DNA of 62,644 nucleotides from Oscillibacter sp. ER4 (GTDB taxonomy: Bacteria; Bacillota; Clostridia; Oscillospirales; Oscillospiraceae), in assembly GCF_000765235.1 (NCBI RefSeq), contig NZ_JPJG01000066.1:1-62644 (forward strand), in the 5' to 3' direction. The translations under genes and the position numbers were made by a program. Under the pieces are notes generated by a model. That model was not told where the DNA came from and searched no databases. It saw nothing but the letters and a program-made list of their open reading frames with translations. Of the stretch, positions 16,380 through 59,524 are shown one piece after another (the stretch's first letter is position 1; every line of letters begins with the position of its first letter).

Positions 16380-16906
16380 GCTGCACGTGATGCGACGCCC
16401 GTCCAAAAGAAAGGCGTTTCCCATTGCAGGCGAGCAGCTCGAAGAACTGCAATGCTTGCCGATTGTACTACCATGCGCGCGGCGTTGCCGCGTTAGCATT
16501 GCTATACGACTTGCCTCTGCTCCTATTATCCGCTGCCGCTCTGCTGATCTTGTAGGAGTGCAGCCTAATCGCCGTCTACCGATGGTGCGCATATCGCGGC
16601 GAGCACAGCAATGCCGCCTTGGCTGGCAACAACAGAATTGATAAAATCCAAAGTAGACGGAAATTGCGTAAGACCTCCGACACGCAGGCAAAGCGACAGC
16701 GAAGATAGAAGAAAGTAAAATCGTTTAGATACATCATCAAGCAGGCACCTGATTGCGCAGCGCGTGCAGTTCTTCAAGCTGCAATCTGACAATACAAAGT
16801 CTTTCTCTTGGGGTTCCAAAGGGGATATTCTCTTTTGCGAAAGAGAATATCCCCTTTGACCCGTGCAGCGCCTTTGGCGCTGCTTCCTCGCGGCACACGT
16901 GCCGCG
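16380..16906. repeat. Non-coding hairpin-rich repeat element, copy 1
   Basis: Most of the long gap 16258-17084 is filled by an element also found, inverted, at 56334-59517. Landmarks: a left inverted end with CCAAAAGAAAGG (about 16400-16460); a 49-bp core at 16496-16544 that matches 59281-59329 in reverse complement with two mismatches; a segment at 16740-16800 (GCAGTTCTTCAAGCTGC, CAATCTGACAATACAAAG); CTTTCTCTTGGGGTTCC; then three hairpins at 16817-16858, 16865-16883 and 16889-16906. The short reading frames inside are on both strands and look like shadows. The outer left border is uncertain. Confidence 0.75.
16817..16858. repeat. Main hairpin of repeat copy 1 (19-bp perfect stem, TGCG loop)
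   Basis: Arms 16817-16835 and 16840-16858 are fully complementary, and the loop is TGCG. The same hairpin with two compensatory base-pair changes is at 59426-59467, and a third variant is at 56358-56399. Two smaller hairpins follow at 16865-16883 (GCAGCGCC/GGCGCTGC) and 16889-16906 (CGCGGCAC/GTGCCGCG). Confidence 0.85.
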
Positions 16907-16956
16907 ACTCACTTTGCACCTGAGCAAAACCGCACAGAGAATTTTCCAAAAACCTA

Positions 16957-16985
16957 TTGACTTTTTCAAAGTCAGAAGTTATACT
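16957..16985 (+). promoter_or_regulatory. Promoter of the rplU operon
   Basis: -35 TTGACT (16957-16962), exactly 17 bases, -10 TATACT (16980-16985). It stands right after the repeat element and about 100 bases before rplU. Confidence 0.8.
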
Positions 16986-16991
16986 TGAACA

Positions 16992-17084
16992 GCCGCTTTG
17001 AATGGGCTTAAAGTTTCGGAAAGTTTCGAGACTTTTCGAACGCCCCCGACAGCGAGTCCGTAATTAAGGAAAGAGGTGCAAGTA
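16992..17084 (+). promoter_or_regulatory. Leader of rplU, possible L21 leader
   Basis: About 93 bases of untranslated leader between the predicted start of transcription and rplU, with a local inverted repeat CGGAAAGTTTCGAGACTTTTCG. Firmicute rplU genes often carry an autoregulatory L21 leader RNA. I see a hairpin but cannot confirm the consensus, so this is a candidate only. Confidence 0.3.
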
Positions 17085-17396
17085 ATGCAAGCGATCATCG
17101 TTACCGGCGGTAAGCAGTATGTTGTGAACGAGGGCGACACCCTGTTCATTGAGAAGCTCCCCGTTGAGGCGGGCGACGCCGTTACCTTCGATCAGGTTTT
17201 GGCGATCGTTGACGGCGAAAACACCAAGTTCGGCACTCCCGTGGTGGAGGGCGCGAAGGTGGAGGCCACTGTCGTTAAGAACGGCAAGGGCAAGAAGGTC
17301 CGTGTCTACAAGTACAAGGCCAAGAAGGGCTATCACAAGCGTCAGGGTCATCGTCAGCCTTATACCAAGGTTGAGATCGGCAAGATCTCCGTCTAA
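17085..17396 (+). CDS. rplU: Ribosomal protein bL21
   Basis: 103 residues from the ATG at 17085, the standard length for bL21, which sits in the 50S subunit and binds 23S r[23 protein letters not shown] at the start and [19 protein letters not shown] near the end are diagnostic. A GTG three codons upstream is possible, but AAGAGG is better spaced for the ATG. First gene of the rplU-prp-rpmA operon, three bases before prp. Confidence 0.97.
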
Positions 17397-17399
17397 GGC

Positions 17400-17729
17400 A
17401 TGACCACTGTTACATTCCTCACTGAGGGGAAGCGCATCATCGGTTTTGATGCTAAGGGCCACAGCGGTTACAGCGAAGAGGGCAGCGATATCGTCTGCGC
17501 GGCAGTCACAAGTGCGGTCCGCCTTGTGGAAAGCACCGTGAACGATGTTTTAGGCCTCGCCGCTTCCGTCAAGGTCCATGAACGCTCCGGCGCTGTGGAA
17601 TTCCGGCTCCCCGGCGGTCTGTCCGCCACGAACGAGAACACCTGTCAGGCTCTTTTAACGGGTTTGATGCTGCTCTTTTCCGAGCTGCACAGCGAATATC
17701 CGGACAATATCGAAGTCATGGAGGCGTAA
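17400..17729 (+). CDS. prp: Ribosomal-processing cysteine protease Prp
   Basis: 109 residues. Prp cuts the N-terminal extension from ribosomal protein L27 in Firmicutes that have one. Catalytic residues are seen as His in the [11 protein letters not shown] motif (residue about 20) and Cys in [13 protein letters not shown] (residue about 32), the conserved order of the family. It lies between rplU and rpmA, its invariant place in these bacteria, and the downstream rpmA does encode the cleavable extension. The start ATG follows the rplU stop by three bases. Confidence 0.95.
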
Positions 17730-17772
17730 GCCCCCTGTTCCGATCATCTTACAGAAAGGATGGCAAATCACC

Positions 17773-18054
17773 ATGCTGAACATCGGTCTTCAGTTTTTCG
17801 CCCACAAGAAGGGCGGCGGCTCCACGAAGAACGGCCGCGACTCTAACGCCAAGCGCCTTGGCCCCAAGCGCGCTGACGGTCAGTTCGTTCTCGCCGGCAA
17901 CATTCTTGTGCGCCAGCGCGGCACCCACATCCATCCGGGCGTCAACGTCGGTATCGGCTCTGACGATACTCTCTACGCCAAGGAGAGCGGCGTGCTCCGT
18001 TTTGAGCGTCTCGGCAAGGATCGTAAGCAGGCTTCTGTTTACCCCGCTGAGTAA
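17773..18054 (+). CDS. rpmA: Ribosomal protein bL27 with N-terminal extension
   Basis: 93 residues. The N-terminus [20 protein letters not shown] has the Firmicute prepeptide ending LQFFA, expected to be cut before HKKGG by Prp; the mature tail then reaches into the peptidyl-transferase centre. The body ([18 protein letters not shown], then [15 protein letters not shown]) is standard bL27. AGAAAGGA precedes the ATG. A terminator follows directly, closing the operon. Confidence 0.97.
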
Positions 18055-18064
18055 TTGCACAATG

Positions 18065-18099
18065 AAGAGCCTCGAGCGAATGCTCGGGGCTCTTTTCTT
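18065..18099 (+). terminator. Terminator of rplU-prp-rpmA
   Basis: Stem AAGAGCC-CGAGC/GCTCG-GGCTCTT with one G.T wobble and a GAAT loop, then TTCTTT. Confidence 0.8.
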
Positions 18100-18126
18100 T
18101 ATCTTTTCCGCAGGAGGTCACTTTTC

Positions 18127-18804
18127 ATGCTCAAGGCAGTTTTGATGGATATCGACGACACGCTGCTCGACTTCGGCAAATGCGCCGAGCAGGCCATGCG
18201 CATCGGCTTTGCCGAATGGGGTCTCCTCTATGACGATTCCACTTACGCGACGTTCACGCGCATCAATGACGGCCTCTGGCTCATGATCGAGCGCGGCGAG
18301 CTCACAACGCAGCAGCTTTTTGAATTCCGCTGGAACCGCATCTTCGAGGCCCTCGGCATCCAGGCCGACGGCGCCGCGTTTGAAAAGCGGTTTTTGGACC
18401 TCCTCTACGAGACGGCCATCCCAGTCGACGGCGCGGACGAGATCTGCCGCTACCTCAAGGAAAAATATATCCTCTGCGCGGCGAGCAACGCCTTCCACGA
18501 CCAGCAGCTCAACCGACTTGAAATGGCGGGACTTCTCCCCTATTTTGACCATGTGTTCGTTTCAGAGTCACTCGGCTACCGCAAGCCCGAAAAGGCGTTT
18601 TTCGATGCCTGCCGCGCTTTTCTTCCCGATGTTGCCGCGGACGAGTGCATGATGATTGGCGACTCGCTGACCGCCGACATCACCGGCGGCAAAAACGCGG
18701 GCATGAAAACGATCTGGTACAACCACACGCACCGCCCCGTTCCGGAGCGCTGCGAGGCCGACCAGATCGTCGATTCGCTGCTCAAATTAAAGAACCTGCT
18801 GTAA
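18127..18804 (+). CDS. HAD-family hydrolase, YjjG-like nucleotidase
   Basis: 225 residues. HAD motif I is DIDDTLLDF (residues about 8-16), the YjjG/PynA pattern of noncanonical pyrimidine nucleotidases. The helical cap follows (ERGELTTQQLFEFRWNRIFEALG), then motif II in ILCAASNAFHDQQ, motif III Lys in SLGYRKPEKAFF and motif IV in CMMIGDSLTADITGGKNAGM. The substrate is probably a nucleoside monophosphate, by family. The frame is open 24 codons further upstream into the terminator, but AGGAGG lies 9 bases before the ATG at 18127. It is convergent with the downstream lipoprotein gene. Confidence 0.9.
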   Translation: MLKAVLMDIDDTLLDFGKCAEQAMRIGFAEWGLLYDDSTYATFTRINDGLWLMIERGELTTQQLFEFRWNRIFEALGIQADGAAFEKRFLDLLYETAIPVDGADEICRYLKEKYILCAASNAFHDQQLNRLEMAGLLPYFDHVFVSESLGYRKPEKAFFDACRAFLPDVAADECMMIGDSLTADITGGKNAGMKTIWYNHTHRPVPERCEADQIVDSLLKLKNLL

Positions 18805-18805
18805 T

Positions 18806-19633
18806 TTAAGAGATCGCTTCCGCGCCGACGGTGTATTCCCAGCCATTATCGCCGCGGGAGGCCGTACACTTCGTAAAGTAATACGCGCCGAGCGGCGAGC
18901 GCCACTTTTCAGCGCTGAAGCAGACCACCGGCAGCGAAAAGCTCTCCCCCTCCGCGCTCTCATCGGGCGTGATGGTGAAGAGCAGACCGTTCGTGAACGA
19001 ATAAGCCGTGCTGCCGCCCTCCAGCTTTTCGCCCATGAGGTACCCCTCCTCGCGCAACTCGTCAAACGTCATCGTCAGGCCCTGCACGCCGTGCTTCTGC
19101 GCATAGATGTAGGCGACCGCCGCCTTTTCGCCCGCGGTCAGCCCGCCGGGTGCCTTGCTCAGATCGACGCTCACGACCTCCGCGCCGCCGTTGAGCCCGT
19201 CGTCCTCGTTCCACAGGTCCTCAAGCACCTGCAAGTAGAGGCCGCAGAGGTCATACTGCGCACTCTCCTCACGCGAGAGCGACACGGCCACCACCTGTGA
19301 AAACTTCGCAGGATATGTCTCCTGCACGCCGCCGGTGTACCAGACCTCGGCGCTCATGCCGCTTTCGATCTCGGAAGCGGACACACTGCCGCCGTCTAAG
19401 TACAGCGTCACGCCTTCGAGCGGCAGGGCGTAGACCTCCGTCTCTCCCGCTAAAATGAGCGTACCGTTTTCACCGTCGCCCACGACGCGCAGCGTCATCG
19501 TGTCCGCGCCGACGTACTGCGGCTCAGGATTGGGCGTGTCATTTTCGTCTTCGTTATCGCGCCCGCCCTTCGTGCAGGCCAAAAGTGCCGCCGTTACGGC
19601 GACGACCATCATCAATGCAAGCAGTCTTTTCAA
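18806..19633 (-). CDS. Predicted lipoprotein, function unknown (TTG start)
   Basis: 275 residues. The N-terminus read from TTG at 19633, MKRLLALMMVVAVTAALLAC, is a textbook lipoprotein signal with lipobox LLAC, followed by an acidic linker (GGRDNEDENDTPNPEPQ). The frame is open for 17 more codons upstream, but those codons are charged and would spoil the signal; AAGGA precedes the TTG. Residues about 45-120 look like a small beta domain (TLRVVGDGENGTLILAG) and the rest holds a region rich in alternating strands. No family recognised. The role is extracytoplasmic. Confidence 0.7.
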   Translation of the reverse strand: MKRLLALMMVVAVTAALLACTKGGRDNEDENDTPNPEPQYVGADTMTLRVVGDGENGTLILAGETEVYALPLEGVTLYLDGGSVSASEIESGMSAEVWYTGGVQETYPAKFSQVVAVSLSREESAQYDLCGLYLQVLEDLWNEDDGLNGGAEVVSVDLSKAPGGLTAGEKAAVAYIYAQKHGVQGLTMTFDELREEGYLMGEKLEGGSTAYSFTNGLLFTITPDESAEGESFSLPVVCFSAEKWRSPLGAYYFTKCTASRGDNGWEYTVGAEAIS

Positions 19634-19740
19634 GGTTTCCGCTTCCTTTCCCGTTGTGTCTTTTCCTTTGACGAAAGGGAGCACAAAAAAGTTCCCAACT
19701 TTTTTCGATTTTTTCTTTTTTGTGAAACGTTCCGTTTTTC

Positions 19741-19769
19741 TTGACGAATCGCCAAAAAACGGATAAACT
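19741..19769 (+). promoter_or_regulatory. Promoter of obgE
   Basis: -35 TTGACG (19741-19746), 17-base spacer, -10 TAAACT (19764-19769). AAGGAGG follows before the obgE ATG. Confidence 0.75.
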
Positions 19770-19808
19770 ATTTGTTTAGGAATAACAAGAATTCAAGGAG
19801 GTGCCAAC

Positions 19809-21089
19809 ATGGCAGCATCTTTTATTGATAAGGCGCGCATCTTCTGCCGCGCGGGCAAGGGCGGCAATGGCGCGGTGGCGTTCCACCGCGAAAAGTACGT
19901 CTCCGCAGGCGGCCCCGACGGCGGAGACGGCGGCAACGGCGGCAACATCGTCCTCGTTGTCGACGACAACATGTCCACGCTGATGGACTTTCGCTACAAG
20001 CGCAAATACGTCGCCGACAACGGCATGGACGGTCAGGGCGCGCGCAAGTTCGGCAAGCAGGGCAAGGATCTCACGATCCGCGTGCCGCGCGGCACCGTCG
20101 TGCGCGACGCGGAATCGAACGAGATCATCAAGGATATGTCCGACTCCGAGCCGTTCATCCTCTGCCGCGGCGGCAAGGGCGGCTGGGGCAACGCGCATTT
20201 CGCAACGCCGACGCGTCAGGCGCCCCGTTTTGCCAAATCGGGCCTTGAGGGCGAGGAGCACGATGTCGTGCTCGAGCTGAAGCTGCTGGCCGACGTCGGC
20301 CTCATCGGCTTCCCGAATGTCGGCAAGTCGACGCTTCTTTCCGTTGTGTCGAAGGCGCGCCCCAAGATTGCAAACTACCACTTCACCACGCTCTACCCCA
20401 ACCTCGGCGTCGTGTACGTCGACGAGGGCGTTTCGTTCGTCATGGCCGACATCCCCGGCATCATCGAGGGCGCAGCCGAGGGCGCGGGCCTTGGTCACGA
20501 CTTCCTGCGCCATATCGACCGCTGCCGTCTGCTCGTTCATGTCGTCGACGTGTCGGGCAGCGAGGGCCGCGACCCGGTCGAGGACTTTGACGCCATCAAC
20601 GCAGAGCTCTCGCAGTATTCCCCCGACCTTGCCACCCGCCCGCAGATCGTCGTCGCGAACAAGACCGACATCATGGAGGACGAGAGCCTGCTCGAAAAGC
20701 TGCGCGCGCATGTCGAGCCGCTCGGCTATCCCCTCTTCGCCCTGTCCGCCGCGTCGCACACCGGCACGCGCGAGCTCGTGCTCAAGATCGCCGAAAAGCT
20801 CTCCACACTCCCGCCCGTCACGGTCTACGAGCCCGAGTACGTTCCCAAGCCCGTGAAGATCGACGCGAGCGAGCCGCTCAAGATCACCATCGAGGACAAC
20901 ACCTACATTATCGAGGGCAAGTGGCTTGAACGCCTTATGAGCAACATCAACTTCGGTGACTACGAGAGCCGGATGTTCTTTGATAAGATGCTGCGAGAAA
21001 ACGGCGTTTTCCAGCAGCTTGAGGACCTTGGCATCAAGGACGGCGACATCGTCAGCATGTACGAGCTCGAATTCGAGTATCAGCACTAA
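19809..21089 (+). CDS. obgE: GTPase Obg/CgtA
   Basis: 426 residues. Obg is an essential ribosome-assembly GTPase also tied to stress and sporulation. Domain order: glycine-rich Obg fold (1 to about 158, with RAGKGGNGAVAFHREKY, GGDGGNGG and CRGGKGGWGNAHFATPTRQ), GTPase domain (G1 GFPNVGKST about 168, DIPGIIEGA, NKTDI about 285), and the C-terminal OCT domain (from about 345) found in Gram-positive Obg. Strong AAGGAGG 7 bases upstream. Followed 21 bases later by a small DUF6472-like gene. Confidence 0.97.
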   Translation: MAASFIDKARIFCRAGKGGNGAVAFHREKYVSAGGPDGGDGGNGGNIVLVVDDNMSTLMDFRYKRKYVADNGMDGQGARKFGKQGKDLTIRVPRGTVVRDAESNEIIKDMSDSEPFILCRGGKGGWGNAHFATPTRQAPRFAKSGLEGEEHDVVLELKLLADVGLIGFPNVGKSTLLSVVSKARPKIANYHFTTLYPNLGVVYVDEGVSFVMADIPGIIEGAAEGAGLGHDFLRHIDRCRLLVHVVDVSGSEGRDPVEDFDAINAELSQYSPDLATRPQIVVANKTDIMEDESLLEKLRAHVEPLGYPLFALSAASHTGTRELVLKIAEKLSTLPPVTVYEPEYVPKPVKIDASEPLKITIEDNTYIIEGKWLERLMSNINFGDYESRMFFDKMLRENGVFQQLEDLGIKDGDIVSMYELEFEYQH

Positions 21090-21110
21090 TTTCTTTCGGG
21101 AGATGATCTC

Positions 21111-21290
21111 ATGTCCATCAGCCTGTGCGAGGACTGCGTTTATTACAGCTACGATGAAGAGTCCGACAGCTACTACTGTGACGAGCAACTCGATGAGGAC
21201 GAGATGGCGTCGTTCCTGCGCGGCAAGCTGACCGCCTGTCCGTTCTACCATCCGGGCCAAAGCGACTACTACCTCGCGGGAAAGCAATAA
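21111..21290 (+). CDS. Small cysteine-rich protein, DUF6472-like
   Basis: 59 residues. It starts MSISLCEDCVYYSYDEESDS and ends in SDYYLAGKQ. Four Cys (C6, C9 in a CxxC; C24; C44 in ACPFYHPG) suggest a metal-binding or disulfide knuckle, and the middle is very acidic and Tyr-rich. The ATG at 21111 has GGGAG upstream, the frame ends at TAA just before a strong terminator, and it follows obgE by 21 bases. I recall such proteins downstream of obgE in Oscillospiraceae as DUF6472, but the function is unknown. Confidence 0.75.
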   Translation: MSISLCEDCVYYSYDEESDSYYCDEQLDEDEMASFLRGKLTACPFYHPGQSDYYLAGKQ

Positions 21291-21297
21291 AAATCGC

Positions 21298-21331
21298 AAA
21301 AAGGGAGCACGCGCAAGCGTGCTCCCTTTTT
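21298..21331. terminator. Strong bidirectional terminator between obgE operon and GNAT gene
   Basis: A perfect 15-bp stem (arms 21298-21312 and 21317-21331) with a GCAA tetraloop and T runs on both strands. It serves the two convergent operons. Confidence 0.92.
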
Positions 21332-21344
21332 CTGTCAGTCTCGA

Positions 21345-21830
21345 TCAAAATGTGATGCGCATCTGGTGCCAGACAACGCCGCCGTGCACGGACTTGTCTG
21401 TCACGCCCTCGTCGACAAAGCAGAACTTCGCGTAGTAGTCGACGAGCCGCTGTTTGCAGGTCAGGACTGCACCCTTTCTCCCCTGCTTTCTCGCATCCTC
21501 AACGGCACGGTGGAGCAGTTCGCCCGCGCAGCCGTTTTTCCGGTACTCCGGCAAGGTGTTCAGACCGAAGAGCATCTGCCACGCACCATTTTCGTCGTGC
21601 ATGGATGCTTTCGCGTACATTTCGTCGGTCAGGTCGGGCTCGTCCGTCACAAAGCCGTCAAGAAACGCGATGAGCTTGTCGCCCTCGAACATCAGCCAGA
21701 AGTGGTCGCCGTAATATTTGATTCGCTCGGCGAATTCCTCTTTTGTCGCTGCCTCGGCCACGGGAAAGCACTCGGCTTCCACTGCCGCGACCGCGTCCAG
21801 ATCGTTCATCGTTGCTGTTCTGATCTCCAT
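21345..21830 (-). CDS. GNAT-family N-acetyltransferase
   Basis: 161 residues. MEIRTATMNDLDAVAAVEAECFP is a typical GNAT start, and the acetyl-CoA pyrophosphate loop is seen as LPEYRKNGCAGELLHRAVEDARKQG (a variant of Q/RxxGxG/A, about residue 103). The late segment VDYYAKFCFVDEGV matches the family's fourth motif. The substrate is unknown. The start at 21830 (AGAGAGGG upstream) is preferred over a start nine codons earlier. It is the last gene of the leftward hflX operon. Confidence 0.88.
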   Translation of the reverse strand: MEIRTATMNDLDAVAAVEAECFPVAEAATKEEFAERIKYYGDHFWLMFEGDKLIAFLDGFVTDEPDLTDEMYAKASMHDENGAWQMLFGLNTLPEYRKNGCAGELLHRAVEDARKQGRKGAVLTCKQRLVDYYAKFCFVDEGVTDKSVHGGVVWHQMRITF

Positions 21831-21847
21831 GGTTCTGCCCTCTCTAT

Positions 21848-22564
21848 TTAGTCCCACTTTTCACGGCTGAGCTCGCGCATGTAGCCAGCCGTAATGATAC
21901 CGGTGGGCAGCGCAACGATGGCGATTCCCATGAACGACGACGTCATGCTCACGATGCGGCCGATCTCGCTCGTCGGATAGATGTCGCCATAGCCGACGGT
22001 CGTCAGCGTGACGACCGCCCAGTAGATGGCGTCGAAAAACGTGTCAAAGCTGTCGGGCTCCACCTGAAACATGATGAGCGCCGACAGCGCGATATACCCG
22101 CCCGCCAGCACGCACACTGCCGCGAGCGCTCGTTTCTCGCGCTTGATGACATTCAAAATAAGTTCAAAGCTGTGCGAGTAGCGCAGGAATTTGAGCGCCT
22201 TGAGCGCTTTGTTGAGGCGGAAAAGCCTAAACAGCTTGAACCCCGACGACAGCATCGTCAGCGACGGCAGGATGGACAGCAGGTCTACAATACCGAAAAA
22301 GCTGAACGGATAGCGCAAAAACGCCCATTTCCCGCTCTTTTCGTACTTTAGGTCCGCCGTCCACCAGCGCAGCAGATAGTCCACGATGAACACCGTGACC
22401 GTTGCGCGGTCGAGCCATATAAACAGCGCATTCGTCTCCTTGAAGCACAGCGGCACAATACTCGCCGCGATGCACACGAGCATGAAGCGGTCGTAAATGA
22501 GACTGTCGCGGTCGTCCTTGTCCGCGACCTCGATGACCTCGTAGATTTTTCTTCGCAAACTCAT
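21848..22564 (-). CDS. Six-helix voltage-gated-type potassium channel
   Basis: 238 residues. The selectivity-filter motif TLTTVGYGDIYP lies near residue 195 between the last two helices, and about six hydrophobic segments are visible. An S4-like helix with spaced basic residues (FKLFRLFRLNKALKALKFLRY, about 120-140) suggests a voltage sensor. There is no RCK/TrkA domain, unlike many bacterial K+ channels. It is four bases after yigZ in the leftward operon, so it is presumably cotranscribed with hflX. Ion identity is inferred from the GYGD filter. Confidence 0.9.
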   Translation of the reverse strand: MSLRRKIYEVIEVADKDDRDSLIYDRFMLVCIAASIVPLCFKETNALFIWLDRATVTVFIVDYLLRWWTADLKYEKSGKWAFLRYPFSFFGIVDLLSILPSLTMLSSGFKLFRLFRLNKALKALKFLRYSHSFELILNVIKREKRALAAVCVLAGGYIALSALIMFQVEPDSFDTFFDAIYWAVVTLTTVGYGDIYPTSEIGRIVSMTSSFMGIAIVALPTGIITAGYMRELSREKWD

Positions 22565-22568
22565 GCCG

Positions 22569-23195
22569 TCACTCCCTTGCGCCGGGCAGAAAGCGCTGCT
22601 CGACCTCTTCCGCGCTCATCTGCCCGCCGGAGAGCTCCGTGAGCGCGGCGGAAAAGTCCGCCACCTTCTGCACAGGCAGAAGAAACGTGAGCGTCACGGC
22701 CGCGCCGTAGTCGCTCGACTCGATCCTGCCCTCGTGTCCCTCGATCAGCAGCTTTATGCGCTCGAACATCGGGTACGGGCATTCGAGCAGCAGCACGGAA
22801 AACGGCTGCATCCGCGCCTTGCCCGCATTGTCAAGTGCGTCCTTCGCCGCCTTGGCGTAGGCGCGCGTCAGCCCGCCCGCGCCAAGCAGAATCCCGCCGA
22901 AGTAGCGCGTGACAATGCACACCACATTCTCCACACCCTCGCGCTGGAAGACGTTCAGCATCGGCTGGCCTGCCGTGCCCTGCGGCTCGCCATCGTCGCC
23001 GTAGCGAACGGTGCCGTCGTGCAGGATGAAGCACCAGCAATTGTGGCGCGCGTCGTAGTATTTCTTTTTCATCTCGTCGATGCGCGCGCGGGCCTCCGCC
23101 TCGGTCTCCACAAGGAAAACGTGGCTGATGAAGCGCGAGCGCTTTTCTTCAAACTCGCTCTCCGCGCTCTCGTATGGGACAAGGTACTCTGTCAT
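22569..23195 (-). CDS. YigZ/IMPACT-family protein (UPF0029)
   Basis: 208 residues from the ATG at 23195. The N-terminal UPF0029 domain is plain: SRFISHVFLVETEAEARA, KYYDARHNCWCFIL, GDDGEPQGTAGQPMLNV and VVCIVTRYFGGILLGAGGLTRAY. The C-terminal half is the DUF1949 domain. The family is related to eukaryotic IMPACT, a regulator of Gcn2; the bacterial role is not settled. The frame extends 34 codons upstream into the neighbouring GNAT gene, but AAAGGA precedes the chosen ATG and homology begins here. Confidence 0.9.
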   Translation of the reverse strand: MTEYLVPYESAESEFEEKRSRFISHVFLVETEAEARARIDEMKKKYYDARHNCWCFILHDGTVRYGDDGEPQGTAGQPMLNVFQREGVENVVCIVTRYFGGILLGAGGLTRAYAKAAKDALDNAGKARMQPFSVLLLECPYPMFERIKLLIEGHEGRIESSDYGAAVTLTFLLPVQKVADFSAALTELSGGQMSAEEVEQRFLPGARE

Positions 23196-23211
23196 GGTTT
23201 CAATGTTCCTT

Positions 23212-52272: not shown

Positions 52273-52308
52273 GTGATTTTCTCCTTTAGTTTTCGTTAAG
52301 ACGAGCAC

Positions 52309-52337
52309 AATATAGCACAAAAGAAAGTAGACGTAAA
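52309..52337 (-). promoter_or_regulatory. Promoter of the symporter gene
   Basis: Read leftward: -35 TTTACG (52332-52337), 17 bases, -10 TATATT (52309-52314). Confidence 0.65.
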
Positions 52338-52344
52338 TACAGAA

Positions 52345-52372
52345 TGCCGTACAGAATAATTCCTGTACGGCA
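52345..52372. promoter_or_regulatory. Palindrome just upstream of the symporter promoter, candidate operator
   Basis: Arms TGCCGTACAG and CTGTACGGCA (10 bp, 8-base gap) lie 7 bases upstream of the -35. No T run follows in the leftward direction, so it is not a good terminator; the adjacent TetR protein is a plausible binder. Confidence 0.5.
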
Positions 52373-52450
52373 CTGCAAAATTCTGATTTTTTGATTGATT
52401 TTACTACATTTTCTGCAAGACGATTTAGTAGACTGTTTTTGAAACAAGTT

Positions 52451-53038: not shown

Positions 53039-53104
53039 GTGCTCCCCTCCCCTGTTTTTATTGATTGTATCACAGTGCGTTGCCCGCTGCCAAGCGTTTT
53101 GCGC

Positions 53105-54055
53105 TCACCCAAGGTTTTTCCGCAGGAATGTGCGAGCATTTTCAAAGAAAATGCCGTCTGCGTCCTGCTGCGATACGCCGCGCGAAAGCAGATACTCGTA
53201 AAAATCCGCCGCCTTCTCCGGCGAATCAAGGCACGGCGGCAGCACCGCGCCGTCGAAGTCCGAGCCGAGGGCGAGGTTTTTGCGCGCGCCGAGGTCGAAA
53301 AAGTGCGCCACATGGCGATAGACGTCGTCTAAGCTCCTGACCGCTCCCCCGTCGCGCAGGAATGGCCCGTAGTAGTTGAGGCCGATCAGGCAGCCGCGAC
53401 GCACCATCTCCTTGATCTGCACATCCGTCAGGTTGCGCTTGTGCGCGCAAATTGCGCGGGCGTTGGAGTGCGTGGCGAGAAACGGCCTTTCCGCCGTCTC
53501 GAACACGTCCGCGAGCCCCGCGTCGTTCAGGTGCGAGATGTCGATCAAAATGCCGCAGCGCTCCATTTCGCGCACGGCGGCGCGGCCAAAGTCCGTCAGG
53601 CCGCGGTCCGTCACATTGCCCGAGCCGAGCTCGTTTTCCCCATTCCACGTCAGCGTCACGGCGCAGACGCCCTGACGCTTCGTCTTCCCGATGCGCGACA
53701 GGTCGCCAGCAAACGCGCTGCCATTTTCCACGCTCAGAAAGGCCGCGGTCTTCCCCGCCGCCCACGCGCGCTCCATATCGGCAACATTGCGGCAGGGCGA
53801 CACACGATCTGCGAATTTTCGCATCTGGCGGTCGAAATTCGCGCAGGCGGCATCAAAAAAGCGGATGGCCTTCTCCCCGCGCAGCTCATCGGGCACGAAC
53901 ACGGCGAAAAACTGCGCCCAGTGGATGTCCTTCGGAATACTTGTGAGCGACAGCGTGCGCGCGGGATCGTCGAGTGTGTCGATGATGTTCGATCCTGCGT
54001 ACATGCAGTCGGTCAACGTGTCGCAGTGGAGGTCGATGAGGGCGTAAGGGCGCAT
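53105..54055 (-). CDS. Membrane dipeptidase, peptidase family M19
   Basis: 316 residues. The zinc-binding DLHCDTLTD (residues about 8-16) opens the family, and further metal/active-site blocks are LSVENGSAF (about 117), ILIDISHLNDAG and FLATHSNARAICAHKRNLTD (about 205). M19 enzymes hydrolyse dipeptides including D-amino-acid dipeptides. Despite the name there is no signal peptide here, so it is cytoplasmic. AAAAGGAAG precedes the ATG. Upstream of the TetR gene on the same strand. Confidence 0.93.
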   Translation of the reverse strand: MRPYALIDLHCDTLTDCMYAGSNIIDTLDDPARTLSLTSIPKDIHWAQFFAVFVPDELRGEKAIRFFDAACANFDRQMRKFADRVSPCRNVADMERAWAAGKTAAFLSVENGSAFAGDLSRIGKTKRQGVCAVTLTWNGENELGSGNVTDRGLTDFGRAAVREMERCGILIDISHLNDAGLADVFETAERPFLATHSNARAICAHKRNLTDVQIKEMVRRGCLIGLNYYGPFLRDGGAVRSLDDVYRHVAHFFDLGARKNLALGSDFDGAVLPPCLDSPEKAADFYEYLLSRGVSQQDADGIFFENARTFLRKNLG

Positions 54056-54159
54056 GCGGGCACTTCCTTTTCAAAAAAGATCACGCTGCATTATACGCTC
54101 TTTCCGCCCGTTTCTCAACCGGCAAAGTTTAAGGAATTCTGAGGAATCTTAGCGTGCTC

Positions 54160-54189
54160 TTTACAAAGGCGCGGCAACACTGATATACT
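54160..54189 (+). promoter_or_regulatory. Promoter of mscS-acyltransferase
   Basis: -35 TTTACA (54160-54165), 18 bases, -10 TATACT (54184-54189), about 25 bases before the channel gene. Confidence 0.65.
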
Positions 54190-54213
54190 GGGCATCGAAA
54201 GGGGCGAAACGCC

Positions 54214-55041
54214 ATGGACAATATTTCCCAGATCATCTCCCGCTCGATCGGTGGCTACAGCATCGGCAGCATCCTTTCCGCGCTGCTGACGTTCCTCATC
54301 TGCCTGATTGTCGTGCGGCTCGTGCTCAAGCTCTGTTCGCGGCTGCTCTCGCGCGCGAACCGCCTGAACGAGCGGCTGCAAAAGGTCATCCTCACAAGCC
54401 TCAAAACGCTTCTGTATCTGCTTACCATCATCATCACAGCCGAGGCGCTCGGCATCAACACCTCGTCGCTCACCGCCATCATGTCGGTGCTGACGTTGGG
54501 CGTCACGCTGGCCGCCGAGGACATTCTCGGCAACGTCGCCGGCGGGCTCGTCATTCTCTTCTCGCATCCGTTCTCGCTCGGCGACGAGATCGAAGTCGGC
54601 GGCACGACCGGCACGGTGCGTGAAATTTCACTGACGCACACGAAGATCGAAACGCCGGACGGACAGATCGTGCTCCAGCCCAACCGCGAAATGTCCAGCT
54701 CGAAGATCATCAACTTCACCGTCCTGGGCCGCCGCCGCATCGTCTACAAGGTCACAGCATCCTACGACGCGCCGACGGACGAGGTGAAGCAGGCCTGCAT
54801 GGACGCCGTTCTCGCCTTCCCCGCCGTGCTGAAAGAACCCACGCCGACGGTGTATCTCTCGAATTACGGTGCCAGCTCCATCGAATACACCATCCGCTGC
54901 TGGACGGCGGCAGACGCCTACTGGGACACTTATTTTAAGATGTACGAGCGCCTGCGCAACACCTTTGCAAAGCACAACGTGGAGATGTCCTACGATCATC
55001 TGAACGTCCACGTCGTGCCGGAGAAACAGAATGAAAATTAA
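54214..55041 (+). CDS. Small-conductance mechanosensitive channel, MscS family
   Basis: 275 residues. Three helices in the first 110 residues, then the pore-lining TM3 with Ala/Gly spacing (LTLGVTLAAEDILGNVAGGLVILFSHPFSLGDEIEVGG, split here at about residue 90-128) and the beta and alpha/beta cytoplasmic domains (SLTHTKIETPDGQIVLQPNREM). It opens under membrane tension to protect against hypo-osmotic shock. It overlaps the following acyltransferase gene by 11 bases. Confidence 0.95.
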   Translation: MDNISQIISRSIGGYSIGSILSALLTFLICLIVVRLVLKLCSRLLSRANRLNERLQKVILTSLKTLLYLLTIIITAEALGINTSSLTAIMSVLTLGVTLAAEDILGNVAGGLVILFSHPFSLGDEIEVGGTTGTVREISLTHTKIETPDGQIVLQPNREMSSSKIINFTVLGRRRIVYKVTASYDAPTDEVKQACMDAVLAFPAVLKEPTPTVYLSNYGASSIEYTIRCWTAADAYWDTYFKMYERLRNTFAKHNVEMSYDHLNVHVVPEKQNEN

Positions 55042-56308
55042 AGTCGTCGATATGACATATGAACAGGCGCTTGCCCAGCCGCCGCAGGTGCACAAAAAGC
55101 CGAAAAAGCCGTCGCTCCTGTTCCGGACGGTCCTGCGCGCAGCCTCCGCGCCCGACCTTCTGGCGACGCATTTCCACTGCGAGAAGATCGGCATGGCGCA
55201 GATCAAAAGCGATGAGCCCTGCCTTGTCCTGATGAACCACTCGTGCTTTCTCGACCTCAAAATCGCGGAGGCGGTGCTGTACCCGCGCCCGTTCAACATC
55301 GTCTGCACGTCGGACGGCTTTGTCGGCAAGGAGTGGCTGATGCGCAGCGTCGGCTGCATCCCCACGCGCAAGTTCTGCTCGGACACGACGCTCGTGCGCG
55401 ATATGCTCTACTGCGTGCGGACGCTCAAAACGTCTGTGCTGCTCTACCCCGAGGCGAGCTACAGCTTCGACGGCACGGCCACACCGCTGCCGGAGAGCAT
55501 CGGCAAGTGCGTCAAGGCACTGAATGTGCCGGTCGTGATGATCCGCACCTACGGCGCGTTCGCGCGTGACCCGCTCTACAACGGGCTGCAAAAGCGGCGC
55601 GCGAAGGTCTCAGCGCAGATGCAGTGCCTGCTCTCGTCCAGCGACGTTGCAGAAAGGAACGTCGCCGAGATCAATGAGCGCATCTTTTCCGCCTTCCGCT
55701 TCGACAATTTCCGCTGGCAGGAGGAAAACGGCGTCTCCGTCAGCGAGCCGTTCCGCGCCGACGGACTCAACCGCGTGCTCTACAAGTGCCCGCACTGCCT
55801 CGCCGAGGGGAAAATGGAGGGCAAGGGCACATCTCTCATTTGCCGAAGCTGTAACAAGGAATACCGCTTGACAGAGATTGGTACGCTGGAATGTTTGAAC
55901 GGCGAGGCCGCGTTCACCCACGTGCCGGACTGGTACACCTGGGAGCGGCAGTGCGTGCGCGAGGAGCTGGAAAGCGGCGCATATCAGCTTGATATTCCCG
56001 TGCAGATCTGCATGATGGTCAACATGCGCGAGATCTGCCGCGTGGGCGAAGGCCGGCTGCACCACGATGAAAACGGCTTCCACCTGACCGGCTGCGGCGG
56101 GAAACTGGACTATTTCCAAAAGCCTGAGGCCTCGTACAGCCTGTACGCCGACTATTTCTGGTACGAGATCGGCGATATGCTGTGCATCGGCGACCACAAA
56201 GCGTTGTATTACTGCTTTCCGCAAGGCGGCGGGGATGTGGTCGCCAAGACGCGGCTGGCTGCCGAAGAGCTCTATAAATTAAAGCGCGCCGCTAAGGCGC
56301 GGGGGTGA
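55031..56308 (+). CDS. PlsC-type lysophospholipid acyltransferase with an inserted zinc ribbon
   Basis: 425 residues. The acyltransferase core has the catalytic NHSCFLDLKIA (NHxxxxD, about residue 68), GKEWLMRSVGCIPT (about 100-113) and the glycerol-phosphate block LLYPEASYSF (about 140). Unusually, from about 248 there is a zinc ribbon YKCPHCLAEGKMEG / ICRSCNKEYRL, and then about 130 residues of unrecognised C-terminal domain (SGAYQLDIPVQICMMVNMREI onward). Start ATG has GGAGA upstream and overlaps the MscS gene. Role: probably phosphatidic acid synthesis or another acyl transfer; the extra domains are unexplained. Confidence 0.87.
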   Translation: MKIKVVDMTYEQALAQPPQVHKKPKKPSLLFRTVLRAASAPDLLATHFHCEKIGMAQIKSDEPCLVLMNHSCFLDLKIAEAVLYPRPFNIVCTSDGFVGKEWLMRSVGCIPTRKFCSDTTLVRDMLYCVRTLKTSVLLYPEASYSFDGTATPLPESIGKCVKALNVPVVMIRTYGAFARDPLYNGLQKRRAKVSAQMQCLLSSSDVAERNVAEINERIFSAFRFDNFRWQEENGVSVSEPFRADGLNRVLYKCPHCLAEGKMEGKGTSLICRSCNKEYRLTEIGTLECLNGEAAFTHVPDWYTWERQCVREELESGAYQLDIPVQICMMVNMREICRVGEGRLHHDENGFHLTGCGGKLDYFQKPEASYSLYADYFWYEIGDMLCIGDHKALYYCFPQGGGDVVAKTRLAAEELYKLKRAAKARG

Positions 56309-56309
56309 T

Positions 56310-56331
56310 GCAGCGCGGCAGCGCTGCTTTT
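56310..56331 (+). terminator. Terminator after the acyltransferase gene
   Basis: GCAGCGC/GCGCTGC stem, GGCA loop, then TTTTGT, two bases after the stop codon. It also forms the outermost hairpin of the repeat element. Confidence 0.65.
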
Positions 56332-56357
56332 GTCCCTGCACCGTGCAGGGGGTGCGT

Positions 56358-56399
56358 TAAAGGGGGCCATTCTCTCACGTGAGAGAATGGCCCCCTTTA
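56358..56399. repeat. Left main hairpin of repeat copy 2 (42-bp perfect palindrome)
   Basis: Arms 56358-56378 and 56379-56399 are fully complementary with ACGT at the centre. It shares GGCCATTCTCT with the hairpin at 59426-59467 but has one more G in the run and a different tip. Confidence 0.88.
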
Positions 56400-56462
56400 G
56401 ATCCCCCAAGAGAACGCAAGGGGCCTTGCCCCTTGACCCCGCACATTGGCAGTCTGTAGGTT

Positions 56463-56470
56463 GAAGAGCT
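56463..56470. repeat. IS66 target-site duplication, left copy
   Basis: GAAGAGCT directly precedes the left IS end; the identical 8 bases follow the right end at 59065-59072. Eight bases is the IS66-family duplication length. Confidence 0.93.
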
Positions 56471-56493
56471 GTAAGCGTAAAACGAAGCCGCGT
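56471..56493 (+). repeat. IS66 left terminal inverted repeat
   Basis: GTAAGCGTAAAACGAAGC and onward; its partner is at 59042-59064 on the other strand with a few mismatches. Confidence 0.88.
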
Positions 56494-56533
56494 AAAAAGG
56501 GCGCCATCTCAGCTTTTGCTCACCGAGATGGCG
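56494..56533 (-). terminator. Terminator of tnpC inside the IS
   Basis: Read leftward: CGCCATCTC/GAGATGGCG, 14-base loop, then CCCTTTTTA. Confidence 0.75.
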
Positions 56534-56538
56534 GTCTT

Positions 56539-58200
56539 TTATTTATGAGTCATATAGCATTCTTTCGGGGCATTTGCGGGAAGCAGCTTTTCAGCCCATG
56601 CTTCATCAGTTTCGCTCAGTTGCGGCGCGTTTCGCAGAACCCACAGCAGATAACGGTACGGATCAAGGCCATTCTCCTTCGCCGTTTCATTCAGGCTGTA
56701 GATCACGCTGCTGGCCTGTGCGCCGCCCGGCGTATTGGCAAACAACCAGTTCTTCCTGCCCATCACAAAGGGCTTAATGCTGCGCTCGGCACGGTTGTTG
56801 CTCAGCTCCAGACGGCCATCCTCCAGATACCTTGTCAGGTATGGCCACTGCTCCAGCAGATAGTGGATGGCCCTGCCCAACGCGGATTTCGGCGCAGCCC
56901 TCGCCTGCATATCATTTGCCCATGACAACAACGCGTCTAAAACAGGTTTCTCCTGTTCCAGCCGCTTTTCATATCGTTCCTCCGGCGTCAGCTCTGCAAA
57001 CGCCTGCTCCAGATTGAAAAGCCGGGAGCAATAGCATTCGCCAATCGCTGCCGGCGAGTCCTTTTGCATCTCCTTGGGCAGCGTTTGCAGAGCCTCATCA
57101 AATTTTCGCCGCGCGTGGGCCCAGCACCCAACCACCCGGATATTCTCAGGAAGTTTGTGGTAGCCCTGGTATCCATCCGCGTGCAGCCAGCCCGAGAAGC
57201 CTTGCAGGAAGGCCTCCGCGTGCTCCGCTTTTCGGGTGGGCTGGTACTCATACAGCACAACCGCCTGTTTCGCACAGCCACTGGTCCGGTACAGCCACAT
57301 ATAGGACTTGCTGGTGGCCATGCGTCCCGATTCTTTCAGCACCTGCAAGGTCGTCTCGTCGGCGTGCAGCACCGGCTCCTTACAAAGCTGCTCGCGCAGC
57401 GTATCGTAGACCGGCCGCAGCCACTTCTCCGAAGTGTTCAGCAGCCAGTTGGCCATGGTCTGCCGGGACAGCTTCAGACCCTGACGCTCAAACTCCTGCT
57501 GCAACCGGTACAGCGGCGAGTACATGACGAATTTTTGCGTTGCCAGATAAGCCACTGCCTCCGCAGAGGCAAAGCTGCCAGGCAGCAGCGCAGGTTCTTT
57601 CGCCGCCTTCACAATGTTGGCTTCACCGGTCTCTTGCTCACAATTCTTGCAGGCGTAGGTGTAGTACACGTCCTCGCGCACCCAGAACTCTGCCGGCTTC
57701 ATCTGCAGTGTTCTGCGAACCTCTTTGCCGATCTCAACCATCTGGCTGCCACAGGCAGAACAAGTCAGTTCGTTCTCCGGCAGGCGGTGCTCCACCACCT
57801 CGGTGGGAGTACCCTCCGGAACGACATCCAGCACATTGCCGGACTGCCGTTTGCACTCGTGCGCCTTCACAGCGACGGGAGCTTTCCCAGCGGAATTCAT
57901 GCCGAAGATGTAAGCCCCCACCTCGTTCATGGTCAGGCTCAGCTGGTCCATGACCAGCTGAGCCGCCTGCTCTGAAGAACGGCCAAACAACTTCTTTTTG
58001 GACAGCTTCAGCTGCTCCAGCAGCCACTCATTTTGCAGCGTCAGGCTGGTGATGACCTGCGCCTGTTCCTGTTCACGGGCAGCAAGCTTTGCTTCCAGCT
58101 TTGCATTCCGTGCTTTTTCCTGCTGCAAACGCTCATATTCCGCACGGGAAATGGTCACCATTTCTTCCGTGTTACTTGTCCGCATTTCTCTGTTTTCCAT
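56539..58200 (-). CDS. tnpC: IS66 transposase TnpC
   Basis: 553 residues, DDE transposase of IS66. It has an N-terminal coiled coil (EYERLQQEKARNAKLEAKLAA), the IS66 N-terminal domain with KKLFGRSSEQ, a zinc-binding segment (LTCSACGSQMVEIG, then CKNCEQETGEA), then the catalytic core VLHADETTLQVL (first Asp), LHADGYQGYHKL (second Asp), WAHARRKFDEAL and a C-terminal LELSNNRAERSIKPFVMGRKNW (Glu in NNRAE). The reading frame is intact. The ATG at 58200 lacks a good ribosome site; a TTG 15 codons upstream is the alternative. Confidence 0.95.
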   Translation of the reverse strand: MENREMRTSNTEEMVTISRAEYERLQQEKARNAKLEAKLAAREQEQAQVITSLTLQNEWLLEQLKLSKKKLFGRSSEQAAQLVMDQLSLTMNEVGAYIFGMNSAGKAPVAVKAHECKRQSGNVLDVVPEGTPTEVVEHRLPENELTCSACGSQMVEIGKEVRRTLQMKPAEFWVREDVYYTYACKNCEQETGEANIVKAAKEPALLPGSFASAEAVAYLATQKFVMYSPLYRLQQEFERQGLKLSRQTMANWLLNTSEKWLRPVYDTLREQLCKEPVLHADETTLQVLKESGRMATSKSYMWLYRTSGCAKQAVVLYEYQPTRKAEHAEAFLQGFSGWLHADGYQGYHKLPENIRVVGCWAHARRKFDEALQTLPKEMQKDSPAAIGECYCSRLFNLEQAFAELTPEERYEKRLEQEKPVLDALLSWANDMQARAAPKSALGRAIHYLLEQWPYLTRYLEDGRLELSNNRAERSIKPFVMGRKNWLFANTPGGAQASSVIYSLNETAKENGLDPYRYLLWVLRNAPQLSETDEAWAEKLLPANAPKECYMTHK

Positions 58201-58269
58201 GAGGAAATTATACCACAAGGCAGAGAGAAAAGCCAGTATTTTCAATGGTTTTTGGACATTCTTCCTTGC

Positions 58270-58626
58270 TCAGACTGCGCTCAATCCTGTCACCGGACGG
58301 TGGGCTTTCGGCTGTTCGATCTGCAACCCCTCCATGAGCCAGCGGTACTGCTGCGGCGTTAAAGTCTTCACCTCAGATTCTGAGCGCGGCCATTGGTACG
58401 CGCCCTGCTCCAGTCGCTTGTACAGCAGGATGAAGCCATCTTTTTCCCAGTACAAGCCCTTGATACGGTCTCACCGCCGTCCGCAAAACAGGAACAGTGT
58501 GTTGGTAAATGGATCCAGTTCAAACTGCTGCTGGACGAGCCGCGCCAGACCATCTATGCCCTTGCGCAGATCCGTGTAGCCGCAGGCGATATAGACTTGA
58601 TCTGCACCGGTGAAATCGTTCAGCAT
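58270..58626 (-). pseudogene. tnpB: IS66 accessory gene tnpB, interrupted by an in-frame TGA
   Basis: A 118-codon frame matching IS66 TnpB from MLNDFTGADQVYIACGYTDL through FTNTLFLFCGRR, then TGA at 58471-58473, then DRIKGLYWEKDGFILLYKRL to the normal end. Both halves are in one frame with no indel, so a single base change is enough to explain it (for example CGA to TGA in the usual GRRRDRIK context). The ATG overlaps the tnpA stop. TnpB is needed for transposition in IS66 systems studied, so this copy may be immobile unless read through or complemented. Confidence 0.88.
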
Positions 58627-58967
58627 AGGCGCAGAAGCTCCACCAGCAGTCTCAGCTGTTCCGCGTCACAACCGGGGTAAATGTTCAGACTGGCCTTCCC
58701 AATATGCAGTGTGGCGCAACGTTCCGAAACGTTGCAAGACATTTTCTTCGGTTCCGGCAGCTCCGCAAAGGTCACGGCCGGCACACCGGAGCACGGCGAT
58801 TGGTTGGCAGCAGTTAACAGCTCCCGTTCCCAGCGGTAATAGGTGGATGCGTTGATTCCTTCTTGTTTGCACCACGCCCGCACCGGCAGACCACTGCTGC
58901 GGCAATCCTGTATCCGCGCCGACCACTCCTGCAGCTTCGCACGGTGTTTCAACTCTGCGCTTGTCAC
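58620..58967 (-). CDS. tnpA: IS66 accessory protein TnpA
   Basis: 115 residues from a GTG at 58967. The start VTSAELKHRAKLQEWSARIQ and the HTH-like SGLPVRAWCKQEGINASTYYRWERELL are typical of IS66 Orf1. The end AEQLRLLVELLRLC overlaps the tnpB start by 7 bases. An upstream TTG (59009) lies in a hairpin and is less likely; GGGGG and AGG precede the GTG. Confidence 0.85.
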   Translation of the reverse strand: MTSAELKHRAKLQEWSARIQDCRSSGLPVRAWCKQEGINASTYYRWERELLTAANQSPCSGVPAVTFAELPEPKKMSCNVSERCATLHIGKASLNIYPGCDAEQLRLLVELLRLC

Positions 58968-58984
58968 CCTGACACCCCCACAAT

Positions 58985-59026
58985 ACAATAGTAGCGGAAC
59001 GTTTCGCAACGTTCCGCTACTATTGT
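58985..59026. promoter_or_regulatory. Perfect 19-bp hairpin upstream of tnpA
   Basis: Arms 58985-59003 and 59008-59026 with loop TCGC, between the right IS end and tnpA. It could damp read-through transcription from outside or sequester the start region, as seen in other insertion sequences; this is inference. Confidence 0.6.
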
Positions 59027-59041
59027 CTCATGCCTGTCCAG

Positions 59042-59064
59042 CCGCTGCTTGCTTTTACGGTTAC
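59042..59064 (-). repeat. IS66 right terminal inverted repeat
   Basis: Read leftward it begins GTAACCGTAAAAGCAAGC, matching the left end. Confidence 0.88.
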
Positions 59065-59072
59065 GAAGAGCT
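59065..59072. repeat. IS66 target-site duplication, right copy
   Basis: GAAGAGCT, identical to 56463-56470. Confidence 0.93.
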
Positions 59073-59425
59073 GCACGTGCTACGCAATCAGGTGCGGTAT
59101 ACATGGCTTCGCCATGAATCCCTGCGATTCGTTTCCGTTTTGCAACCGCGCCTTACTATCGTGAGGCGCGAGTGACGTTAGGCTGGCGGCAGACTGCGTA
59201 CGGAATGTGGCATTGCTAACGCTCGCCTCATTGAGTAGTGTCTCGATAGACGGAAATTACTGCACACTTCTACAAGATGGGCAGAGCGGCAGCGGATGAT
59301 AGGAGCAGAGGCAAATCGTATAGCAATGCTAAACGCGGCTTCGCCGCGCGCAGGCAGTTGCATTCCGGAGGCATCAAAGTAGTTCAAACCCGAGACTGCC
59401 AAGCAAAGCCTTTCTCTTGGGGTTC

Positions 59426-59467
59426 CAAAGGGGCCATTCTCTTTTGCGAAAGAGAATGGCCCCTTTG
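59426..59467. repeat. Right main hairpin of repeat copy 2
   Basis: Arms 59426-59444 and 59449-59467, 19 bp perfect, loop TGCG. It differs from 16817-16858 at two adjacent base pairs, both changed on both strands. Followed by stems at 59472-59496 (11 bp) and 59501-59517 (8 bp); these may also end transcription of the leftward gene next door. Confidence 0.88.
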
Positions 59468-59524
59468 ACTCGCTTCCCTGCGCGGCGCAGGGAAGCCCCC
59501 GACGGCCTCAGGCCGTCATAATTT

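Follow-up and report, generated by a model that had tools for sequence, protein, structure and literature searches.

A candidate mobile cassette family in Oscillibacter sp. ER4 with structured, mirror-related ends

Miniature inverted-repeat transposable elements (MITEs), including the mosaic TIMEs, are short, non-autonomous elements with inverted ends, and some members carry passenger genes. REPIN/RAYT systems consist of paired inverted hairpins in intergenic DNA. The BOX, RUP and SPRITE repeats of pneumococcus are described, in the available parts of that account, as structured interspersed repeats that are high in copy number in one species and near-absent from its relatives, some large BOX members also carrying reading frames (PMC3049150). 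Triplex-capable repeats have been discussed for bacteria since the 1990s and 2000, their role still being open, and the accessible portion of Holder et al. 2015 (PMC4666352) reports that bacterial intrastrand triplex motifs are abundant and that the E. coli motif is intergenic, is not tied to mobile elements and has no transposases nearby. Here we describe two segments, copy 1 and copy 2, of contig NZ_JPJG01000066.1 (C106) of Oscillibacter sp. ER4, a stretch of 62,644 nucleotides analyzed whole and referred to as the window (genome of 2.73 Mb in 130 contigs, 98% complete). Both belong to a repeated family classed here as a non-autonomous mobile element outside any named family.

The closest biological parallels are BOX-type repeats and MITEs. 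Unlike in MITEs, neither a parent transposase nor a target duplication was found, the ends are structural, and the arms are long and modular; REPIN/RAYT systems differ in that the present family has long arms and cargo, and no Y1 transposase was found. The two-gene cassette and mirror-related ends of the present family are not described for BOX, RUP or SPRITE in the parts of that account available here (PMC3049150). The PIT, BoxC and TM motifs, as far as the available text of their description goes, are likewise intergenic and high in copy number and combine a hairpin with a third tract in intrastrand-triplex orientation, whereas the motif reported here stands at the ends of a repeated family able to carry genes (PMC4666352). 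Nothing recognizable as this family was found in the literature searched.

We consider it somewhat probable that the two window segments are members, without cargo, of a family of mobile cassettes whose folded, mirror-tract ends are recognized by an outside recombinase. A full member would comprise an outer palindrome (hp1), an end tract, a long structured arm, a two-gene cassette, the inverted arm, a second end tract and a second hp1. In the most economical history, a transposon-like unit of this kind would have lost its central cassette, leaving the arm-to-arm form, which could then multiply in the manner of a MITE. On a single DNA strand the tract could fold back onto the hairpin and occupy its major groove as a third strand, with the purine motif on one strand and the pyrimidine motif on the other, and the folded end would be the structure that a trans-acting recombinase recognizes on single-stranded DNA, with no long target duplication arising. 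A single-strand recombinase as the mover is our proposal. What is new is a triplex-type motif at the ends of an apparently mobile, gene-carrying family, with tract and hairpin covarying among several types of end; the family thus offers a concrete function to test for triplex motifs, namely, recognition of DNA ends.

A repeated family and its gene-carrying members

Using blastn against the ER4 genome, at least 138 matches were obtained with copy 1 (E up to 1) and at least 43 with copy 2 (E up to 0.001). Patterns built on the Y module, the X module and the end identified 52, 44 and 74 places, respectively, against none for backward controls. With 66 of the 74 end places and 12 places from blastn matches among the input, merged positions formed 73 clusters, two of which are the halves of copy 2, giving about 72 places; some are halves at contig breaks. 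Across 60 genomes blastn matched two, ER4 itself and one relative (G005, a single weak match), that is, 1 of 59 relatives, and the end pattern was also positive in 2 of 60, with nine places in G005. The X core was absent from an exact-pattern scan of a genome-contig collection, and searches of viral contigs for the X core, the end plus hairpin and the small protein introduced below confirmed none.

Forty-two copies could be aligned over arms and ends, and the 26 full-length ones that combine an X with a Y arm were aligned anew over their whole length. The 16 omitted copies comprise five with two X arms (read by eye, window copy 1 among them), two broken and five truncated at contig ends, three with an extra insertion, and window copy 2, so that neither window copy is included. 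From outside to inside, the layout is variable-stem hairpins, hp1, a short linker, the end tract, a multi-stem arm, a central palindrome and the inverted arm. Three arm types occur in several combinations. Of 108 predicted consensus pairs, 22 had at least one sequence in which both sides had changed while pairing was preserved; the two outer hairpins account for 17 of the 22, a count made without a shuffle control. Conservation drops to background about 30 bp beyond hp1. The flanking genes took all four orientations among the 25 of 26 copies for which a crude gene prediction assigned both neighbors, and the elements are apparently intergenic; no conserved frame was noticed by eye in empty copies. 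In 733 kb of the ER4 genome every palindrome classed as hp1 sits at a family element, a result partly built in, as the search model contains hp1.

Six members in the ER4 genome (on contigs C47, C87, C98, C52, C46 and C111) hold a gene pair between their inverted arms, at the same central point in each. The cargo is two divergent genes, both pointing outward, for a protein of 49 to 68 amino acids and a small DNA-binding protein. In the C52 member an X arm and a Y arm surround the cargo, and such a member would be the expected kind of parent of the empty copies.

Five X-arm loci (L029, L021, L017, L252 and L254) have an additional block of some 56 bp within what is otherwise the most conserved stretch, and a deletion may have produced the short form. 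Contig ends truncate several Z-type members, and only three are whole or nearly so; at L124, L128, L130, L131 and L133 assembly contigs break inside Z-type ends near hp1, and short-read genomes of the genus may hide recent copies.

An earlier examination of the letters of the window (the sequence-only reading) had proposed that the two segments are inverted copies of one element, and this is confirmed by the many sibling places and by a 49-bp core that differs at exactly two positions between 16496 to 16544 and the reverse complement of 59281 to 59329. It had allowed that the match might end with that core or that the segment might be a decayed protein gene or fall in a known Rfam family; the whole body matches in the 26 aligned copies, the element has no Rfam match, and a decayed protein gene was set aside because inspection by eye revealed no frame kept among the empty copies. 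Copy 1 consists of two X arms and copy 2 of an X and a Y arm. End motifs were located at 16401 to 16414, 16801 to 16813, 56403 to 56414 and 59410 to 59422. Palindromes of 42 nucleotides with 19-bp stems were found at 16817 to 16858, 56358 to 56399 and 59426 to 59467, with a further hairpin at 59472 to 59496, in keeping with the strong hairpins claimed at three of the four ends. Folded as single-stranded DNA, the three palindromes with their end tracts were 6.9 to 8.9 standard deviations better than shuffles. Copy 2 was correctly described as split by an IS66 insertion sequence (IS), which lies at 56471 to 59064 with the 8-bp duplication GAAGAGCT on either side (Pfam IS66 transposase match; E value, 3e-94). 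The left end of copy 1, in contrast, is not a degraded CTTTCTCTTGGGG end as proposed: GTCCAAAAGAAAGG, or a variant shorter by one A, is found again in seven further copies of the alignment, accompanied there by its own hairpin of the CCCATTTTCTTTC..GAAAGAAAA type (read by eye). It represents a second end type, here with its own hairpin lost. A third type combines the end CCCTCCCAGAGAAAA with the hairpin AAGGGAGGG..ATCTCTTTT. The parts of the two window copies are as follows.

16401..16414, plus strand: left end of copy 1, second type GTCCAAAAGAAAGG, hairpin missing (letters; hairpin kept in the seven other copies, by eye)
16415..16495, plus strand: outer part of copy 1 left arm, with short internal stems (alignment; nhmmer match 16399-16627)
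16496..16575, plus strand: X module of copy 1 including the 49-bp core (X-pattern place C106:16523; letters)
16595..16618, no strand: central palindrome of copy 1, junction of the two arms and cargo point in siblings (sequence, alignment, siblings by eye)
16637..16800, minus strand: right arm of copy 1, an inverted X arm (nhmmer opposite-strand match 16637-16860)
16801..16813, plus strand: right end tract of copy 1, CTTTCTCTTGGGG (letters; 8-letter mirror of the adjacent hairpin arm)
16817..16858, no strand: outer palindrome hp1 of copy 1, 19-bp stem (palindrome and folding analysis)
16865..16883, no strand: next hairpin outward of copy 1 (read from sequence)
56310..56327, no strand: third hairpin outward of copy 2, window-left (read from sequence)
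56334..56350, no strand: second hairpin outward of copy 2, window-left (read from sequence)
56358..56399, no strand: outer palindrome hp1 of copy 2, window-left (palindrome and folding analysis)
56403..56414, plus strand: end of copy 2, CCCCCAAGAGAA, window-left (letters)
56417..56435, no strand: inner end hairpin of copy 2, CAAGGGGC..GCCCCTTG (sequence; recurs in the 26-copy alignment)
56471..59064, minus strand: IS66-family insertion in copy 2, a later event (Pfam; GAAGAGCT duplication at 56463-56470 and 59065-59072)
59073..59250, minus strand: Y arm of copy 2, including CTCACGATAGTAAGGCGCGGTTG at 59143-59165 (Y-module pattern)
59253..59340, minus strand: X module of copy 2 including the 49-bp core (X-module pattern; letters)
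59410..59422, plus strand: end of copy 2, CTTTCTCTTGGGG, window-right (letters; mirror match of 8, direct match also 8)
59426..59467, no strand: outer palindrome hp1 of copy 2, window-right (palindrome and folding analysis)
59472..59496, no strand: second hairpin outward of copy 2, window-right (palindrome analysis)

Copy 1 is located upstream of the gene for ribosomal protein L21 (rplU), and copy 2 is flanked by an acyltransferase-like gene on one side and a lysylphosphatidylglycerol synthase-like gene on the other.

Mirror relation between end tract and hairpin

In most end types the purine tract mirrors, rather than complements, the purine strand of the palindrome beside it. The tract and hairpin pairs are GAAAGAGAA with AAGAGAAAG, GGAAAGAGAA with AAGAGAAAGGG, GAAAGAAAA with AAAAGAAAG, AAAAGAGA with AGAGAAAA, GAAAGAGAAAA with AAAAGAGAAAG, AAAAGAGAAGAAA with AGAAGAGAAAA and AAAAGGAAGAAA with AGAAGGAAAAAG. 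Over 79 pairs (the unique rows among 103 found), the longest mirror match averaged 8.86 for cognate against 7.18 for swapped partners, the highest of 200 shuffles reaching 7.42. Mirror matches were longer than direct matches in 33 of 54 pairs from the ER4 genome and in 20 of 25 from relatives, and shorter in none, the rest being ties. Counted by type (n = 38), the mirror was longer in 23, the direct match in 1 and neither in 14, with six rows (three types, including the sole direct-favoring one) kept in although the wrong purine run had been taken as the tract. A gapped comparison over the arm gave 20.57 versus 16.92 for the mirror (highest of 30 shuffles, 17.41) and 15.20 versus 14.21 for direct matching, and two complement controls were without clear difference. 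A direct repeat between end and hairpin, allowing Watson-Crick exchange with the 5′ arm, was therefore rejected as fitting worse than the mirror in the ungapped, by-type and gapped comparisons. In 733 kb of the ER4 genome, 28 hp1 flanks averaged 7.57, against 4.09 (maximum, 6) for 128 flanks of other palindromes, a difference partly built in because the hp1 flanks were picked by motif.

Sister families are present in congeners. The end GACTTCCCCAAAAGAGAAA, with one mismatch allowed, was identified in 6 of 17 congeners at 2 to 9 places each (34 in total), and a hairpin like CTGACACCGCC TTTTCTCTTTC..GAAAGAGAAAA CGCGGTTTCAG was found at nearly every one of the 30 loci inspected; in some loci both end and hairpin are of variant sequence. 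On the loop side, the base of the hairpin tract (G or A) equaled the mirrored end base in 24 of 26 rows (p 0.0005, relatedness ignored; p 0.002 when one locus whose hairpin is broken is removed), a table counted by hand from 27 rows with one row, its hairpin base a T, left out. Long inverted arms were found in congener loci (104 bp at 96% in L290 and 214 columns at 81% in L295), and the small protein lay inward of the end, by motif, in 4 of the 30 loci examined of the 34 places. No second, inverted copy of the exact GACTTCCCCAAAAGAGAAA end was found in the 30 loci, and for this reason many congener elements may be one-armed or unlike-ended. At L282 and L287 (G007:C39:39443 and 39650), two left ends, 207 bp apart, point the same way, as if an arm had been tandemly duplicated.

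No copying process that would generate mirror repeats is known to us. The mirror register is what a third strand in the major groove needs and is the signature of a putative PIT-like intrastrand triple helix. By eye, the main types have a stem of about 11 bp below the tract, and 7 to 8 nucleotides link its foot to the third strand; in a folded end this linker could span the lower stem. Compared with PIT motifs, a hairpin with a tract in mirror register is present, though only in part (6 of 7 letters) for the commonest right-hand type. On the available description of the PIT classes, the ends would be class II on one strand and class IV on the other (PMC4666352). The second loop here, made of lower stem and linker, is about 18 nucleotides by eye and exceeds the 1 to 6 nucleotides given as the loop limit of the ITxF finder in the accessible part of Holder et al. 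2015 (PMC4666352), and ends like these would consequently escape it. A wider generalization, tentative and in our view doubtful, is that there is a class of mobile elements with intrastrand-triplex ends, in which hairpin and mirror tract coevolve as one recognition structure for a single-strand recombinase, and that solitary triplex motifs of other bacteria, such as PIT and BoxC, could be remnants or relatives of these ends.

Possible movers and competing explanations

Several results weigh against an outside recombinase acting on folded ends. Neither the transposase with the same ends nor the empty sites with target duplications that the sequence-only reading had proposed looking for were found: no transposase looking like the element's own was seen in the members seen, five of the six cargo members having none, and across 26 copies there was no excess of direct repeats (8.0 versus 8.0 shuffled), duplications of 2 to 5 bp being below resolution. 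Upstream of rplU, no element was apparent by eye in up to 620 bases of 13 congeners, where the upstream gene is non-syntenic. Pfam Y1_Tnp (PF01797) had no match in the ER4 genome and 11 congeners. The C111 member (L157, 946 to 2177; G000:C111) does contain a DDE transposase, encoded in two adjoining reading frames (DDE_Tnp_1 E value, 1.6e-13; DUF772 E value, 3e-8). We read this gene as a separate IS because it is bounded by short inverted ends of its own, with a shared flank word of 9 letters, is missing from the other five cargo members, and has relatives in G005 and G006 (L323 and L324) that stand without element ends. It nevertheless stays a possible helper, since it is single-copy in its own genome and the 3 of 18 genomes searched in which it is present all hold element families. 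An autonomous member could also be hidden among the Z-type members cut at contig ends. As for the mirror relation, the commonest right-hand type, GAGAGAA against AAGAGAA, mirrors in 6 of 7 letters with the direct match equally good, and congener type L283 mirrors in 6 of 11 only; direct matching also rises over the 79 pairs (7.27 cognate, 6.67 swapped), purine tracts are low in complexity, and related copies are non-independent. Separately, the co-occurrence of C111-type transposase relatives in G005 and G006 with element families may be chance.

One competing explanation is an ordinary MITE family, in which a DDE transposase would act in trans through the inverted repeats, the hairpins would be bidirectional terminators that lower the cost to the host, and the mirror would be a by-product of low complexity. 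The terminal inverted repeats, short transposase-free body, non-coding sequence and many apparently intergenic copies all suit it, hp1 ends in short T runs (by eye), and DDE transposases are at hand in the IS66 and inside the C111 member. The MITE-like part of the sequence-only reading holds to the same extent, that is, for short, non-coding elements with inverted ends at about 72 apparently intergenic places and a weak match in 1 of 59 relatives, but it misses the cargo-bearing siblings and the mirror ends. As an explanation of the whole family it appears rather unlikely, given that mirror matching is specific to cognate pairs, that no autonomous copy with the same ends was seen, and that the 26 copies gave no target-duplication signal, though duplications of 2 to 5 bp would be possible. 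About the same low probability is given to modular interspersed palindromes (BIME or BOX-like) whose spread would rest mostly on recombination, gene conversion and replication slippage instead of a transposase and which captured the gene pair once. Three arm types in several combinations, variable blocks combined differently from copy to copy (by eye), several hairpins outward of each end and one-armed members (by eye) could all arise in this way; a single capture sits poorly with cargo at one central point in six members with different DNA-binding genes, and the process with conservation at background about 30 bp outside hp1.

An RNA element, in which outgoing transcripts would end in tract plus hairpin and a pyrimidine-motif triple helix would stabilize or terminate the RNA, is distinctly less probable. 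The cargo genes point outward, so that their transcripts would meet a CUUUCUCUU-like tract and then hp1, and the hairpins contain compensatory pairs; against this, a cargo gene in several members has its own terminator-like hairpin before the arm (by eye), and the only Rfam hit at gathering scores within the window is a tRNA, so the mobile structured RNA of the sequence-only reading was not borne out either. Movement of paired inverted hairpins by a Y1 tyrosine transposase, as in REPIN/RAYT, would account for the copy number and the apparently intergenic positions, yet it can hardly be credited with no resident Y1 gene among PF01797 matches in ER4 and 11 congeners and with a REPIN body far shorter than that of the present element. 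An outside single-strand recombinase acting on folded ends remains the explanation we prefer.

The small protein and its partners

The DNA-binding partner of the cargo varies among members, being of Cro/C1-type helix-turn-helix (HTH) by Pfam or ribbon-helix-helix (RHH)-like; both RHH assignments are weak, one falling below the Pfam cutoff (E value, 0.006) and the other made by eye without a match. For the small protein no convincing match was found in Pfam, NCBIfam or PHROGs, nor in PADLOC with the two members tested, a lone CDC37_C match (E value, 0.0006) occurring in 1 of 20 small-protein members. A toxin family match, as expected of a type II toxin-antitoxin pair, was thus missing from these four resources; the protein might be a toxin of a new sort. 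A comparison with solved structures yielded 281 matches (E up to 1), the strongest of them, at 0.0002, being a designed protein; cytochrome b562 or its fusions predominated among the best 60 of the 281; these were set aside as likeness in helical composition.

Six of the seven small-protein genes in the ER4 genome lie inside elements, the seventh standing with an HTH-like partner just outside an empty one on contig C2, and the sole small-protein gene found in G005 sits in an element with its own arms and a CCCCAAGAGAG end. The small protein was found in 53 of 149 genomes searched, ER4 included, and a DNA-binding gene adjoined it, by eye, at 19 of 41 loci (11 of 28 with XRE or RHH and 8 of 13 with XRE or TetR). 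Because of this spread and these neighbors, the gene pair seems to predate the element and to be more widespread. Interchangeable DNA-binding genes thus stand beside one small-protein family across Oscillospirales, and the pair may be an addiction or control module.

At L123 (XRE gene at 1427 to 1642, plus strand), L162 and L163, near-identical XRE proteins accompany small-protein versions that clearly differ from one family to another, from which the two genes appear to have been exchanged. In Oscillibacter and Oscillospiraceae genomes (L311 to L314) a TetR-like gene rather than XRE adjoins the small protein, and in congener loci L172 and L176 a long palindrome, GCGACACAA..TTGTGTCGC, precedes the small-protein gene in place of the HTH gene (all by eye). 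Directly after the right arm of a cargo-bearing element in G013:C224 (L171, about 1795 to 1870) lies what we take to be the 3′ end of a group II intron. At L153 (8113 to 9384; G005:C12), an element-like arm and end stand between two tyrosine-integrase-like pieces near a tRNA-like gene (by eye), an arrangement possibly produced by insertion with loss of the middle.

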